Assembly (NCBI GenBank): GCA_016871855.1
Contig: VHBQ01000011.1
Span: 1 to 53,061 of the forward strand
Origin: Gemmatimonadota bacterium
GTDB lineage: Bacteria > Gemmatimonadota > Gemmatimonadetes > Gemmatimonadales > Gemmatimonadaceae
Length of the DNA stretch: 53,061 nt
Direction: 5' to 3'
In this document: piece after piece, positions 877 to 46,644 of the stretch
Layout: each line of letters starts with the position of its first letter
Position numbering within the stretch: the stretch's first letter is position 1
Made by a program: the position numbers and the translations under genes
The notes under the pieces: model-generated
Database searches by the model: none
Seen by the model: the letters and a program-made list of their open reading frames with translations, nothing else
What the model was told of the DNA's origin: nothing

Positions 877-1064
877 CGACAGAGAAAGACAGAGAAAGAC
901 AGAGAAAGACAGAAACGACAGAAACGACAGAGAACGACAGAGAACGACAGAGAACGACAGAGAACGACAGTCACAACAACACCGAGGGGCGCCGCGAATG
1001 ACCGCAGCGCCCCTCTGTGTACCTGCCGATTCCCGCCCTTTACTGTCGTTCTCTGTCGTTCTCT
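877..1064. repeat. Inverted tandem-repeat spacer, 10-nt unit AGAGAACGAC
   Basis: The left arm (877-970) is a purine-rich tandem array, first AGAGAAAGAC units, then 9-nt AGAAACGAC, then AGAGAACGAC. The right arm (1043-1064) is a perfect 22-bp reverse complement of 949-970. Each arm touches or nearly touches the stop codon of the gene beside it (TAG at 870, TAA at 1065 on the minus strand). The core holds a separate hairpin. The spacer lies between convergent genes, so it would form a large hairpin in transcripts from either side. Confidence 0.9.
984..1015. terminator. GC-rich hairpin in the core of the repeat spacer
   Basis: The 9-bp perfect stem GAGGGGCGC (984-992) pairs with GCGCCCCTC (1007-1015) around a 14-nt loop. 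No U-tract follows on either strand, so if it terminates transcription it does so with the outer repeat arms or Rho. It lies between convergent genes. Confidence 0.5.
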
Positions 1065-2486
1065 TTACTTCAACGGTTCAAACCTCGCCTGGAAGAAGCG
1101 CAGGTACTTGGGCTCGTAGACCATCTTCAGCCCCTTCACCGTTTCGCGCTGCTCGTAGACGGCCTTCACCGACTCGGCGACGACGTCCATGTGAGCCTGC
1201 GTGTAGACGCGGCGCGGGATGGTGAGGCGGGTGAGTTCGAGCTTGGGCCGGTAATGGTCGCCAGTCTTCGCGTTACGTCCGGCGCTCACGATGCCGCGTT
1301 CCATCGCGCGGATGCCGCTGTCAAGATAGAGCTGCGCGGCCAGCGTCTGCGCCGGGAACTCGTCCTGCTTCAGCTGCGGATAGAAGCGCTTGGCGTCGAG
1401 GAAGATGGCGTGGCCGCCGATGGGTTCCATCATCGGCACGCCCCACTCCTCGAGCAGATCGCCCAAGTAGCGCACCTGGCCGATGCGGGCACGGATGTGG
1501 TCGTCCTTCACCGATTCGGCGGTGCCGATGGCCATCGCCTCCATGTCGCGGCCGGCGAGTCCGCCGTACGTGTGCAGCCCCTCGAACACGACGACGAGAT
1601 TGCGCAGCTCCTCGAAGACGTTCCAGTCGTTCACCGCCACCCAGCCGCCGATGTTGACCAGCGAGTCTTTCTTGGCGCTCATCCAGGCGCCGTCGGTGTA
1701 GCCGCAGAACTCCTTGAGGATTTCAGCGACGGACTTGTTGGCGTACCCCGTCTCCCGTTCCTGGATGAAGAAGGCGTTCTCCACGGCGCGCGTCGCGTCG
1801 AGGTAGATCTTGATGCCGTGCTTATCGCCCCAGGCGCGCAGCGCCTTCACGTTGGCCATCGAAACCGGCTGGCCGCCGGCCATGTTCACGGTGGCCGCCA
1901 GCGAGACGTAGGCGATCTTGTCGGCGCCATGCTCCTTCACGAGCGCGTCAAGCTTCCCGATGTCCACATTGCCCTTGAACGCGCCGCGGTGCAGCGAGTC
2001 GTGGGCCTCGTCGCAGATGACGTCCACAAAGATGCCGCCGGCCATTTCCTGATGAAGGCGCGTCGTCGTGAAGTACATGTTGCCCGGCACGTACTGGCCC
2101 GCCTTGATCTCCGTGCGGCTAATCAAGTTCTCGGCGCCCCGCCCCTGGTGCGTGGGGACCAGGTATTTGTAGCCGTAGTACGTCTGGATGGCGTGCTCGA
2201 GATGGTAGAAGTTCTCCGACCCCGCGTACGCCTCGTCGCCGACCATCATCCCCGCCCACTGGCGGTCGCTCATCGCGCTTGTGCCGCTGTCGGTCAGGAG
2301 GTCGATGTAGACGTCGGCGGAGCGCAGGAGAAACGTGTTGTAGCCCGCCTCAGCCATGGCACGCTCGCGCGCGGGGCGGTCGGTCATGGTCAGCGGCTCG
2401 ACCATCTTGATCTTCCACGGTTCGGCCCAGGAGCGGCGGCCGAACTGCTGGCCCATTGTGCGGGGCACTTCGTGCTTGTCGGTCAT
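1065..2486 (-). CDS. tpl: Tyrosine phenol-lyase (beta-tyrosinase)
   Basis: This 473-residue PLP enzyme cleaves L-tyrosine to phenol, pyruvate and ammonia, reversibly. The family also includes tryptophanase, but specificity residues favour TPL: Thr140 in NMYFTTTR and Arg397 in [11 protein letters not shown] occupy the places of Citrobacter TPL Thr124 and Arg381, which contact the phenol hydroxyl, with a constant offset of 16. The PLP lysine is Lys273 in [10 protein letters not shown], and Tyr87 in DEAYAGS matches TPL Tyr71. The chosen ATG at 2486 gives the usual family length plus a short N-terminal extension. Further upstream the frame loses family resemblance. It is divergent from the CocE-like hydrolase and convergent with the ILVBL-like gene. 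It could support tyrosine catabolism, but no partner genes sit beside it. Confidence 0.9.
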
Positions 2487-2727
2487 ATGAGGGGCGCAGC
2501 AGCGCCGGTGGGAGGAACATCGCGTCACGCGCCCGCAAATTCGCCATTCGCCTCCCCCGCAACGAATCAGAGTTTTCACGACACCGCGTCAGGAAACACC
2601 TGTCTCCGAGTCCCATGCATTGTCGGAACCGCCGCAGGCTGGCGCGTCGCGGTCAGACGAGCGATGCTTGACCGATTGGCGGCGGAACCGCCGCCGTGTC
2701 GCACGCACCCTCTCGATTCAGACGCCC
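2487..2727. promoter_or_regulatory. Divergent promoter region, tpl / CocE hydrolase
   Basis: The 241 bp between two divergent starts must hold promoters for both genes, though I cannot assign -35/-10 boxes with confidence. A perfect palindrome, GGCGGCGG-AA-CCGCCGCC (2678-2695), lies about 33 nt upstream of the hydrolase ATG and could be an operator or a leader hairpin. Confidence 0.35.
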
Positions 2728-45468: not shown

Positions 45469-46569
45469 TTAGCGCTTGGTGGTGTCCGACGGCGCGCTCA
45501 CCTTGAGCGCGGTCCCCTCGGTGATGCCGAGCGCCGCGCCCACGAGCAGCGTGTCGCCCTTGGCGATCCCCGATGTGATCTCCACGCGCTCGGTGGCGTC
45601 ATCGCGCGCGCCGAGCGTCACCACGACGTGCTCCACGCGCCCGCCCTTGAGGCGAGAGACCTCGGGGCGAAGGCCGCGCAGGTCCACGGCGTTGAGCGGC
45701 ACGGCCAGCACGTCGCGCACCGAGCTGGCCACGCGGCCCTCGGCGAACAGCCCGGCGACCAGCCCGCTCCCCGGATTTGGAATGCGCGCGATCACTTTCA
45801 CCTGGCGCGTTGCGGCATCAGCCGACGGCGCGATGTGGGTGAGTGTCCCGCGGAAACGACGGTCGGGGTAGCCCGTCACGCTGAACGTCACTGGCGCGCC
45901 GATCCGCAGCGCTCCGAGCTGTGACGCCGGGATGGACGCCTCGAGTCGCATCGTCGCCGGATCCACCACCGTGAACAGCGCCGCTCCCGGCGACACGACG
46001 TCGCCGGCGTTGACCGTGCGCTCGGCGACAACCCCCGCATAGGGGGCCTTCACCACCGTGGCGTCCTTCTGCTTCTGCGCCTGCGCGAGACGCGCCTTGG
46101 CGTCCTCGAACTGCGCCTGCGCGGCGAGGTTCGCGCGGCGGGCGTTCTCAAGGTCGCGGTCGGCGATCGCACCGGCGGCGCTGAGCCGCGTGGCGCGCTC
46201 GAGTTCGCGCTTGGCGATGTCGGCGGCGAGCTCGGCCTGCGTGACGCCGCTGCGCGCGCTGAGCCACGCGTCGGCGATGGCCCGGTCGTCAATGCGCGCC
46301 AAGGGTGCGCCGGCCGCGACACGATCGCCCGGTTCCTGCAGGATGGCCATCACCTGTCCGTTCACCTCGGCGCGGATGGACGCGGTACGCTCGGCGACGA
46401 GCGAGCCGCTGATGGCCGGGCCGGTGGAGAGCGTCGCGATGTCGGCGACGATCACGGCCTCCGGGCCGACGAGCACGGCGCTCGGCGCGCCGTTGGAGGG
46501 GGAGGATTTGCGGCCGCAGGCGGAGAGGGCGACGGCGGCGATGAGGAGGAGCGTGTTCCGAGTAGTCAT
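45469..46569 (-). CDS. RND efflux periplasmic adaptor (membrane fusion) lipoprotein
   Basis: This 366-residue lipoprotein (lipobox LSAC) is an AcrA/HlyD-like adaptor. It has a split lipoyl domain (VNGQVMAILQEPGDRVAAG and VKAPYAGVVAERTVNAGDVV), a coiled coil between (about 110-165), and beta-barrel and membrane-proximal domains. The ATG at 46569 is preceded directly by a pyrimidine-rich repeat without a Shine-Dalgarno, although the frame continues through the repeat. It couples the RND pump to TolC. Confidence 0.9.
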   Translation of the reverse strand: MTTRNTLLLIAAVALSACGRKSSPSNGAPSAVLVGPEAVIVADIATLSTGPAISGSLVAERTASIRAEVNGQVMAILQEPGDRVAAGAPLARIDDRAIADAWLSARSGVTQAELAADIAKRELERATRLSAAGAIADRDLENARRANLAAQAQFEDAKARLAQAQKQKDATVVKAPYAGVVAERTVNAGDVVSPGAALFTVVDPATMRLEASIPASQLGALRIGAPVTFSVTGYPDRRFRGTLTHIAPSADAATRQVKVIARIPNPGSGLVAGLFAEGRVASSVRDVLAVPLNAVDLRGLRPEVSRLKGGRVEHVVVTLGARDDATERVEITSGIAKGDTLLVGAALGITEGTALKVSAPSDTTKR

Positions 46570-46570
46570 T

Positions 46571-46644
46571 GGTGCAGAGAGGCAGGGAGCAGAGCGAGGT
46601 GCAGGGTGGAAGGGAGCAGAGTGTAGTGCAGGGTGCAGGGGAGG
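46571..46644 (-). repeat. Single repeat arm before the adaptor start
   Basis: On the minus strand this is pyrimidine-rich (CCCTGCACCCTGCAC and CTCTGCTCCCT units) and ends 1-2 nt before the ATG of the adaptor. It starts just after the TolC-like TAA. It belongs to the same family as 41351-41540 and 42235-42303. Confidence 0.85.

Follow-up and report, generated by a model that had tools for sequence, protein, structure and literature searches.

Tandem repeat arrays of shared strand polarity and changing units at gene boundaries of a Gemmatimonadota genome

Contig VHBQ01000011.1 of Gemmatimonadota bacterium (family Gemmatimonadaceae, assembly GCA_016871855.1) carries short tandem repeats at the edges of many of its genes. 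The window analysed here is this one whole contig of 53,061 nucleotides, and the elements under study are arrays of short units in the gaps between genes, placed next to a stop or a start codon. The purine-rich strand of these arrays mostly runs 5' to 3' out of the nearest gene, many of the arrays face a partner in the same gap, their units are specific to lineages, and the unit has changed at orthologous gaps of relatives.

Arrays of the window

The arrays of the window and the hairpins between or beside them are as follows.

871..970, + strand: purine arm, unit AGAGAACGAC in ten copies, beginning within the stop codon of the + gene that ends at 872
984..1015, no strand: GC-rich core hairpin between the arms of gap 873-1064, alignable (29 of 35 bases) in the congener G006, where the arms are of another 10-mer
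1043..1064, - strand: partner arm, pyrimidine-rich on +, period 10, reaching the stop codon of the - gene at 1065
4651..4686, + strand: purine arm, imperfect, CACGAAGG-like, not listed by Tandem Repeats Finder
4704..4739, no strand: core hairpin with a 16-bp stem; a similar core is found in further CACGGAG/CACGAAG elements
4757..4792, - strand: partner arm of 4651-4686, imperfect, CACGAAGG-like, not listed by Tandem Repeats Finder
8702..8732, - strand: single ACGGTGG array, period 7, pyrimidine-rich on +, immediately at the stop of the + gene that ends at 8702 and 8 nt upstream of a start
22762..22810, + strand: purine arm, unit AACAGAGAGAC, period 11, 1 nt past the + stop at 22760
22849..22908, - strand: partner arm of 22762-22810, 4 nt from the - stop at 22913
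23910..23931, + strand: purine arm, period 11, adjoining the start of the - gene at 23906
23954..23989, - strand: partner arm of 23910-23931, period 11
23996..24033, - strand: classical terminator-like hairpin, kept in 9 of 9 congeners aligned at the gap, including the array-free G004, G008 and G010
28640..28667, no strand: GC hairpin beside a single array, near-identical in G006, where the array is of another unit
28669..28699, - strand: single ACGGTGG array, period 7, running into the - stop at 28699
34476..34512, + strand: purine arm, 11-mer, starting inside the stop codon TAG that ends at 34477
34527..34574, - strand: partner arm, 11-mer, 2 nt from the - stop at 34577
39765..39806, + strand: purine arm between divergent genes, period 11, 10 nt from the - start at 39754
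39864..39916, - strand: partner arm between divergent genes, period 11, 6 nt from the + start at 39923
41351..41409, + strand: purine arm, 26-mer unit GGTGCAGG, flush with the stop TGA ending at 41350
41459..41542, - strand: partner arm of 41351-41409, period 26-27
42201..42228, no strand: core hairpin within the convergent gap 42180-42303, matched by counterparts in 3 of 3 congeners aligned
42236..42303, - strand: single 26-mer array, extending as far as the - stop at 42304
46571..46643, + strand: single 27-mer array flanked by two - genes, the start at 46569 being 1 nt away and the stop at 46647 3 nt away

All units and array positions given in the first-pass annotation of this contig were found again, and its gene ends agree with an independent gene call, except that one start differs (23906 instead of 23894). 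The annotation had described arrays that are purine-rich on the sense strand after stops and pyrimidine-rich before starts, and this polarity is seen at 16 of the 16 gene sides it listed. Its description of the rule as strict goes too far, with 19 exceptions among the 153 polarised gap arrays of the larger genome sample described below. Two arrays of the window also violate its stop-codon half towards the second gene they border. Array 8702-8732 immediately adjoins the stop of the + gene that ends at 8702 and is pyrimidine-rich there, and the same composition is found on the sense strand for 46571-46643, just past the stop at 46647 of a - gene. A search of the window against Rfam and for tRNAs gave no match.

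Many arrays abut or overlap stop codons, and TAG or TGA then forms part of the array. Seven stretches of the window are predicted to fold as RNA far below shuffled sequences, with z between -5.5 and -12.7. The lowest value belongs to the arms 22762-22810 and 22849-22908, which are predicted to fold together with a minimum free energy of -102 kcal/mol (22757-22915, z -12.7).

Polarity and pairing in the wider genome

The genome of the window (G000) is an assembly of 2.99 Mb in 159 contigs and is 85.6% complete. The sample studied consists of the window and 40 kb from each of 20 further contigs (853,061 bases, 29% of the genome), with 783 called genes and a coding density of 92%. Gaps of at least 15 nt between called genes were counted, giving 473 gaps, and stretches of congeners and of four genomes from other genera were used for comparison. 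Tandem arrays were called by Tandem Repeats Finder, and inverted repeats in the gaps were scanned by stem score. Polarity is defined as the composition of the array on the strand running 5' to 3' out of the nearest gene, with R for purine-rich and Y for pyrimidine-rich.

In this sample, 423 arrays were called, of which 4 lie in neither gaps nor genes. The density of arrays is higher in gaps than inside genes: 162 fall in the 66.6 kb of gaps and 257, all genic, in the rest of the 853 kb. The period is divisible by 3 in 196 of the 257 genic arrays versus 26 of the 162 gap arrays. Among the gap arrays, 49 of 162 have period 7 and the remaining ones have periods of 8-47, and at least nine unit families have been labelled in the arrays of this genome.

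A clear strand bias is present in the sampled 29% of the genome. Read outward from the nearest gene, 134 gap arrays are purine-rich, 19 are pyrimidine-rich and 9 are neutral. Within 20 nt of a stop the ratio is 63 purine-rich to 6, and within 20 nt of a start it is 34 to 2, so that the rule holds symmetrically for the two ends of a gene and is independent of the direction of transcription. The same tendency is found in the congeners G006 (47:13 with 6 neutral; 24:3 within 20 nt of stops and 8:4 within 20 nt of starts) and G010 (25:4 with 3 neutral). The observation is therefore confirmed as genuine and extends beyond the window.

Inverted repeats with a stem score of at least 20 occur in 39 of the 473 gaps, and the 5' arm is purine-rich in all 39. 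At lower thresholds this holds for 61 of 64 (at least 15) and 82 of 93 (at least 12). Stems of at least 20 were seen in only 1 of 473 length-matched intragenic pieces and in 0 of 1,419 first-order Markov sequences. A general purine bias of gap edges was considered as the cause and rejected, since array-free gaps show too weak a trend, mostly of the same sign (divergent gaps of G000: 0.548 left, 0.462 right).

The arms of one gap face each other in a fixed order. Of 39 gaps in G000 that hold two or more arrays, 36 are R..Y, none is Y..R and 3 include a neutral arm, so every fully polarised gap of this kind (36/36) is R..Y. In G006, 14 such gaps comprise 11 R..Y, one neutral array followed by R..Y, one YY and one Yn (n, neutral), and the 6 gaps of G010 comprise two R..Y, three with a neutral arm and one YY. 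Like arms facing inward are present in 32 of the 39 gaps of G000, and 7 were scored as unlike: five combine two real families, one is apparently of a single family and one includes a coding-like array. In G006, 9 of the 14 gaps are like and 5 unlike; two of these count as real mixed gaps, and the other three involve GC-rich or coding-like arrays.

All seven mixed gaps (five in G000, two in G006) have R as the left arm and Y as the right one, with arms that are unable to pair; since they obey the rule without pairing, hairpin geometry does not explain it. The rule also holds for most arrays with no partner detected (52 of 63 in G000, 17 of 28 in G006 and 13 of 15 in G010), although for some of these single arrays a weak partner is present where one is expected (mean z 1.48, versus 0.22 for the opposite side, in G000). 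An explanation of the polarity by hairpin geometry alone was favoured at first and was dropped after the mixed gaps and single arms had been seen. The proposal of the first-pass annotation that the rule spans unrelated units, with composition and position outweighing sequence, is borne out, and the gaps with two different units are direct evidence for it. In-register copying between arms (quasi-palindrome correction) was also rejected, as arms match hardly better than unit-shuffled ones: among 34 equal-period two-array gaps of three genomes, the arm match exceeds the unit-shuffled mean in only 14.

Turnover of units among relatives and occurrence in other phyla

In the ortholog comparison, the flanking proteins of congeners are 58-95% identical. 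At 6 of the 11 array-bearing gaps of the window, the unit has changed in congeners at the same gap.

873-1064: changed unit in G006
22761-22912: changed unit in G010 and G008
23907-24139: changed unit in G002 and G003
28611-28698: changed unit in G004 and G006
34478-34576: changed unit in G010 and G004
39755-39922: changed unit in G010

The units at 22761 (G008), 28611 and 34478 (G004) are unrelated to those of the window, and the other changed gaps hold variants of a CAGAG theme. At 873-1064 in G006, both arms have changed and the core still aligns. At 28611-28698, a single arm has three different units across three species, again with a nearly identical core hairpin in G006. At 23907-24139, no arrays are present in G004, G008 and G010, and the terminator-like hairpin is found there in all nine aligned relatives. 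Polarity is kept wherever congener arrays were found, except in G008 at 22761. Some aligned congener gaps are too short or array-free, partly perhaps as a result of gene calls (for example, G002 at 22761).

Unit families differ sharply between the congener samples. The 11-mer is present in 7 of 11 genomes of the genus and in 0 of 30 others. Four consecutive GACGGTN heptamers occur 99 times in the genome of the window, versus 0 in G001, 0 in G004, 1 in G006, 4 in G009 and 5 in G002, and not at all in 194 further genomes of the phylum. The suggestion of the first-pass annotation that the repeats are mobile or self-expanding thus fares well in terms of lineage-specific amplification and unit change, but no mobile gene is tied to the arrays. 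The search for Y1_Tnp yielded a single match here, interrupted by an inner stop, and one further match in 10 congeners; other transposase families were not searched. Spread of the type known from REP-associated tyrosine transposases and their hairpin-forming REP doublets (RAYT/REPIN; REP, repetitive extragenic palindrome) was rejected, given that the only Y1_Tnp match here has an inner stop. Several gaps of the G010 sample hold separate palindromes of 25-30 bp ending in CGCGAA/TTCGCG, which are not tandem and are REP-like.

One unit has been found far outside the genus. A 25-nt stretch of the CACGGAG unit is matched letter for letter by at least 117 stretches, and the 80 matches listed come from at least 10 phyla by record titles, mostly from metagenome assemblies; the carriers listed include Geothrix fermentans DSM 14018, Geomonas limicola, Geomonas silvestris and Longilinea arvoryzae. 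The 80 listed loci contain 89 occurrences, of which 47 have an inverted partner on the 3' side of the purine strand, 1 has it on the other side and 41 have none or an ambiguous one. By position, 33 occurrences were placed in gaps, 46 inside crude calls of open reading frames and 10 at edges, and 27 of the 33 in gaps are nearer to the gene they point away from. In 11 of 16 inspected loci, a stem is built of these arms. The loops differ between phyla, indicating that the arms are common to phyla and the cores are not. IMG/VR viral contigs (L320-L329) hold five stretches each for two units, CACGGAG and the 11-mer, and are perhaps host DNA.

Other gaps of the window contain conserved motifs of a different kind. 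At 29925-30149 and in the equivalent gap of five congeners, three GTTTCCCTCTG-like motif copies (two direct, one inverted) are kept in position; lying upstream of the - gene that starts at 29924, they look like a conserved operator. The divergent gap 20394-20515 has two blocks, GTAGTGTCACYYAATT and CTCAAG, that are conserved in the window and eight congeners and form a probable promoter or operator. At 2487-2727, upstream of the - gene starting at 2486, a ATCAGAGTTTTCACGACA block is kept in the window and in 3 of 4 aligned congeners.

Possible roles and comparison with known systems

It is tentatively proposed that the arrays are gene-boundary tandem elements with fast turnover, and that the paired ones probably serve as bidirectional transcription ends and mRNA caps. 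The basic part would be the single arm, in which a unit of mostly 7-27 nt is repeated close to a stop or start, with the purine strand running outward. Two facing arms, usually of the same unit and sometimes around a GC-rich core, form a long inverted repeat. An RNA crossing the pair from either side would carry the purine arm first after the stop and could fold it onto the pyrimidine arm, and the resulting hairpin of about 20-60 bp may end or insulate transcription and cap the mRNA in both directions. Hybrids of pyrimidine RNA with purine DNA (rY:dR) are weak, and one behind the pyrimidine arm might help release without a U-tract. An amplification process would carry one unit to tens of gaps within a species and, the unit sequence being nearly free, would rewrite the words repeatedly.

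Multiple findings point in this direction for the paired arrays, for which the bidirectional terminator class named in the first-pass annotation is plausible. Elements with a stem of at least 20 are found in 16 of 74 convergent gaps versus 23 of 399 others (Fisher p 5.6e-5, G000), and the element density per kb of gap is 2.12 in convergent, 0.41-0.64 in tandem and 0.27 in divergent gaps. The arms have a median distance of 3 nt near a stop codon and of 17 nt near a start codon. In tandem gaps, elements with a stem of at least 15 and a purine 5' arm are nearer to the stop than to the start in 23 of 28 cases in G000 (median 5.5 nt from the stop versus 47.5 nt from the start) and in 13 of 14 cases in G006. 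The predicted hairpins are stable, and nine of the 21 convergent, family-labelled elements with a stem of at least 15 have an extra loop hairpin with a stem of at least 8. A similar loop core recurs in the CACGGAG/CACGAAG elements, and the cores of other families are mostly unique. In Xanthomonas, transcripts start or stop at repeats able to form G-quadruplexes (G4s) more often than at control repeats, as reported in PMC4692102.

Other observations weigh against this explanation. The stop preference is not seen in the tandem-gap elements of G010 (3 of 6), and five elements with a stem of at least 20 sit between divergent genes. U-tracts are rare, with TTTT after or AAAA before the stem in 2 of 61 elements in G000 and in 0 of 22 in G006; a section heading of the survey PMC8355165 states that poly-A/U trails are not necessary for hairpin termination. 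The arrays do not clearly replace classical hairpins, which occur in 11 of 21 convergent array elements versus 17 of 23 array-free convergent gaps (p 0.21), and in 4 of 22 tandem gaps with array elements versus 44 of 140 without (p 0.31), with G006 leaning the opposite way. Arms show no register match beyond their common unit, so pairing is not finely maintained. In the genus of G016, inverted heptamer pairs lack a clear purine polarity and one two-array gap is Y..R, and G021, G029 and G031 have almost no elements in 100-kb samples, so neither arrays nor polarity are universal. Arms anchored at starts follow the rule no less than those at stops (34:2 in G000). Since these arms, most single arms and the seven unpairable gaps follow it, hairpin termination is not the source of the polarity, and a bidirectional terminator leaves the start-anchored and unpaired arrays unexplained. 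Their polarity needs another cause. One candidate, less likely than the proposal above, is that the single boundary-anchored arm is the evolving unit of a widespread class of gene-edge arms, the word of which is rewritten genome-wide in a given species by a directional process, with hairpins, G4s and terminators being secondary. An arm would then be added or would grow at either gene end and irrespective of the word, with the 3' end of its purine strand facing the gap.

A possible but doubtful alternative is that the arrays are amplifying and largely selfish or neutral repeats, in which copying (ectopic conversion, slippage or a mobile mechanism of unknown type) seeds arms at gap edges with no needed function, and polarity comes from the mode of arm addition or from tolerance (for example, no Shine-Dalgarno-like purine arrays on the sense strand before starts). 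The 99 GACGGTN heptamer runs, with 0-5 in five congeners and none elsewhere in the phylum set, fit this account, as do the sharp differences in unit families between congeners, the presence or absence of arms beside an intact terminator-like hairpin at 23907-24139, the identity of one unit across many phyla and the arms of different families within one gap. However, anchoring a few nt from stops together with convergent enrichment looks like more than promoter avoidance, positions often persist through changes of unit, 32 of the 39 two-array gaps have like arms facing each other, and no transposase is tied to the arrays, at least as far as the Y1_Tnp search extends. The idea of DNA-end processing marks, meaning Chi-like sites or repeats added at breaks, would also account for a polarity that is symmetric at gene boundaries, the 3' end of the purine strand pointing into the gap (the outward strand has the free 3' end at a gap break), and for two independent arms. 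It is very improbable, as alignable cores lie between arms that differ, and as RecC family proteins were found in 0 of 16 genomes and PDDEXK_1 (as in AddB) in 1 of 16, other Chi readers not being searched. Ku was found in 0 of 11 genomes of the genus versus 13 of 20 other relatives. Recognition by Chi/AddAB/RecBCD and Ku end joining were therefore rejected, no Chi reader among those searched nor Ku-type joining having been found in the genus.

The Rho-loading element offered by the first-pass annotation is disfavoured where it concerns the sense RNA after the stop, because the stop-anchored arrays are purine-rich there (63:6 within 20 nt), the opposite of a Rho utilisation (rut) site. Only an inward-facing version survives, and it is unlikely. 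A polymerase entering a gene from the gap would make C-rich, G-poor RNA, load Rho and stop, which would insulate the gene against antisense read-through. The pyrimidine strand has about 42% C and 20% G (as the complement of the arm composition), and mixed and single arms are compatible with this version, which does not require pairing. In like-armed pairs, however, the C-rich arm would be paired in the hairpin, and a start-anchored site falls in the gene's own leader if the promoter is upstream. A search for the Rho RNA-binding domain was positive in all 16 genomes, with two matches in 9 of 10 genus genomes; Rho being near-universal, its presence is weak support. The matches in G000 are at C78:221-445 and C7:14607-14798, G002 has only a weak match (E ~1e-8), and among six genomes from other families a single match is seen in four and a pair of matches in the other two. 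G4 elements, as proposed for GGGAATC repeats, have the placement rule of Xanthomonas and Nostoc in their favour, but they can hardly be the basis here and were rejected as such: a G4 motif on either strand is present in 6 of 61 elements in G000 (55 lack it) and in 0 of 22 in G006, and the 11-mer and 10-mer units contain no GGG.

Multiple known systems resemble the arrays in part. REP, bacterial interspersed mosaic elements (BIME) and REPINs are extragenic palindromes of 20-40 bp near gene ends that are thought to act in termination, mRNA stability or topology. The arrays share the extragenic position near gene ends, but their arms are tandem arrays of many unrelated units that may be unpaired, and no RAYT-type gene is tied to them. 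Bidirectional intrinsic terminators have a stem-loop after the stop with a purine-rich 5' side and a pyrimidine-rich 3' side and are common between convergent genes. A stable predicted hairpin soon after stops is also present here, whereas U-tracts are rare, the stems are long and made of repeats, and divergent gaps and single arms occur as well. Unlike clustered regularly interspaced short palindromic repeats (CRISPR), the units lie head-to-tail without spacers (cas genes were not searched). The separation from REP/BIME and CRISPR made in the first-pass annotation is therefore fair, although the same placement rule was published in 2015 for Xanthomonas and Nostoc.

Cyanobacterial short tandemly repeated repetitive (STRR) heptamers (PMC2670836) are likewise short intergenic tandem units able to form hairpins, one of them near a gene 3' end, and roles in transcript stability, translation coupling or termination have been suggested. 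Their usual 7-bp unit is not the rule here, and the passages of that paper considered here do not describe purine-outward polarity, unit turnover or mixed gaps. TAACTGA repeats of Beggiatoaceae, Cyanobacteria and Bacteroidetes (PMC4679880) are also intergenic heptamers with a preferred direction to starts and with one unit in unrelated lineages. They lie mainly upstream of starts with one indirect (inverted) set, the unit is not purine-rich and by itself it is not predicted to form an RNA structure.

The closest system is that of the GGGAATC and GGGGA(C/T)T heptamers of Xanthomonas and Nostoc (PMC4692102, 2015), where the placement rule is already in print and is read in terms of G4s. In that report, the G-rich strand is on the sense strand within 50 bp after stops and on the antisense strand within 50 bp before open reading frames, the repeats overlap stop codons, have many copies per genome and are under-represented between divergent genes, and inverted pairs number 70 and 75 in two Xanthomonas genomes and few in Nostoc. 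Mostly the same gaps are occupied in two Xanthomonas species, with varying length and sequence. Outward polarity and facing pairs are thus shared with the present arrays, and a G4-forming heptamer unit is not. The authors work from G4 potential, say that the role is still to be found and study one G-rich heptamer type per genome. Here, at least nine families are present, mostly without G4 potential, different families stand on the two sides of some gaps, and units have changed between congeners. Searches of open-licence papers brought up no account of mixed gaps, of a rule shared by many units or of units changing at fixed places, and a literature search for six unit strings gave no match. What is already known is the placement rule for G-rich heptamers, and what is added here is its extension to many units, unlike-sided gaps and unit change at fixed gaps. 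The rule is thereby detached from G4s as well as from hairpins and becomes a question on gene boundaries that can be put to the test. Unit change at fixed places and bursts confined to one species suggest that bacteria can quickly rewrite intergenic repeats by the dozen, and the letter-for-letter presence of one unit in many phyla calls for a spread mechanism or strong convergence.

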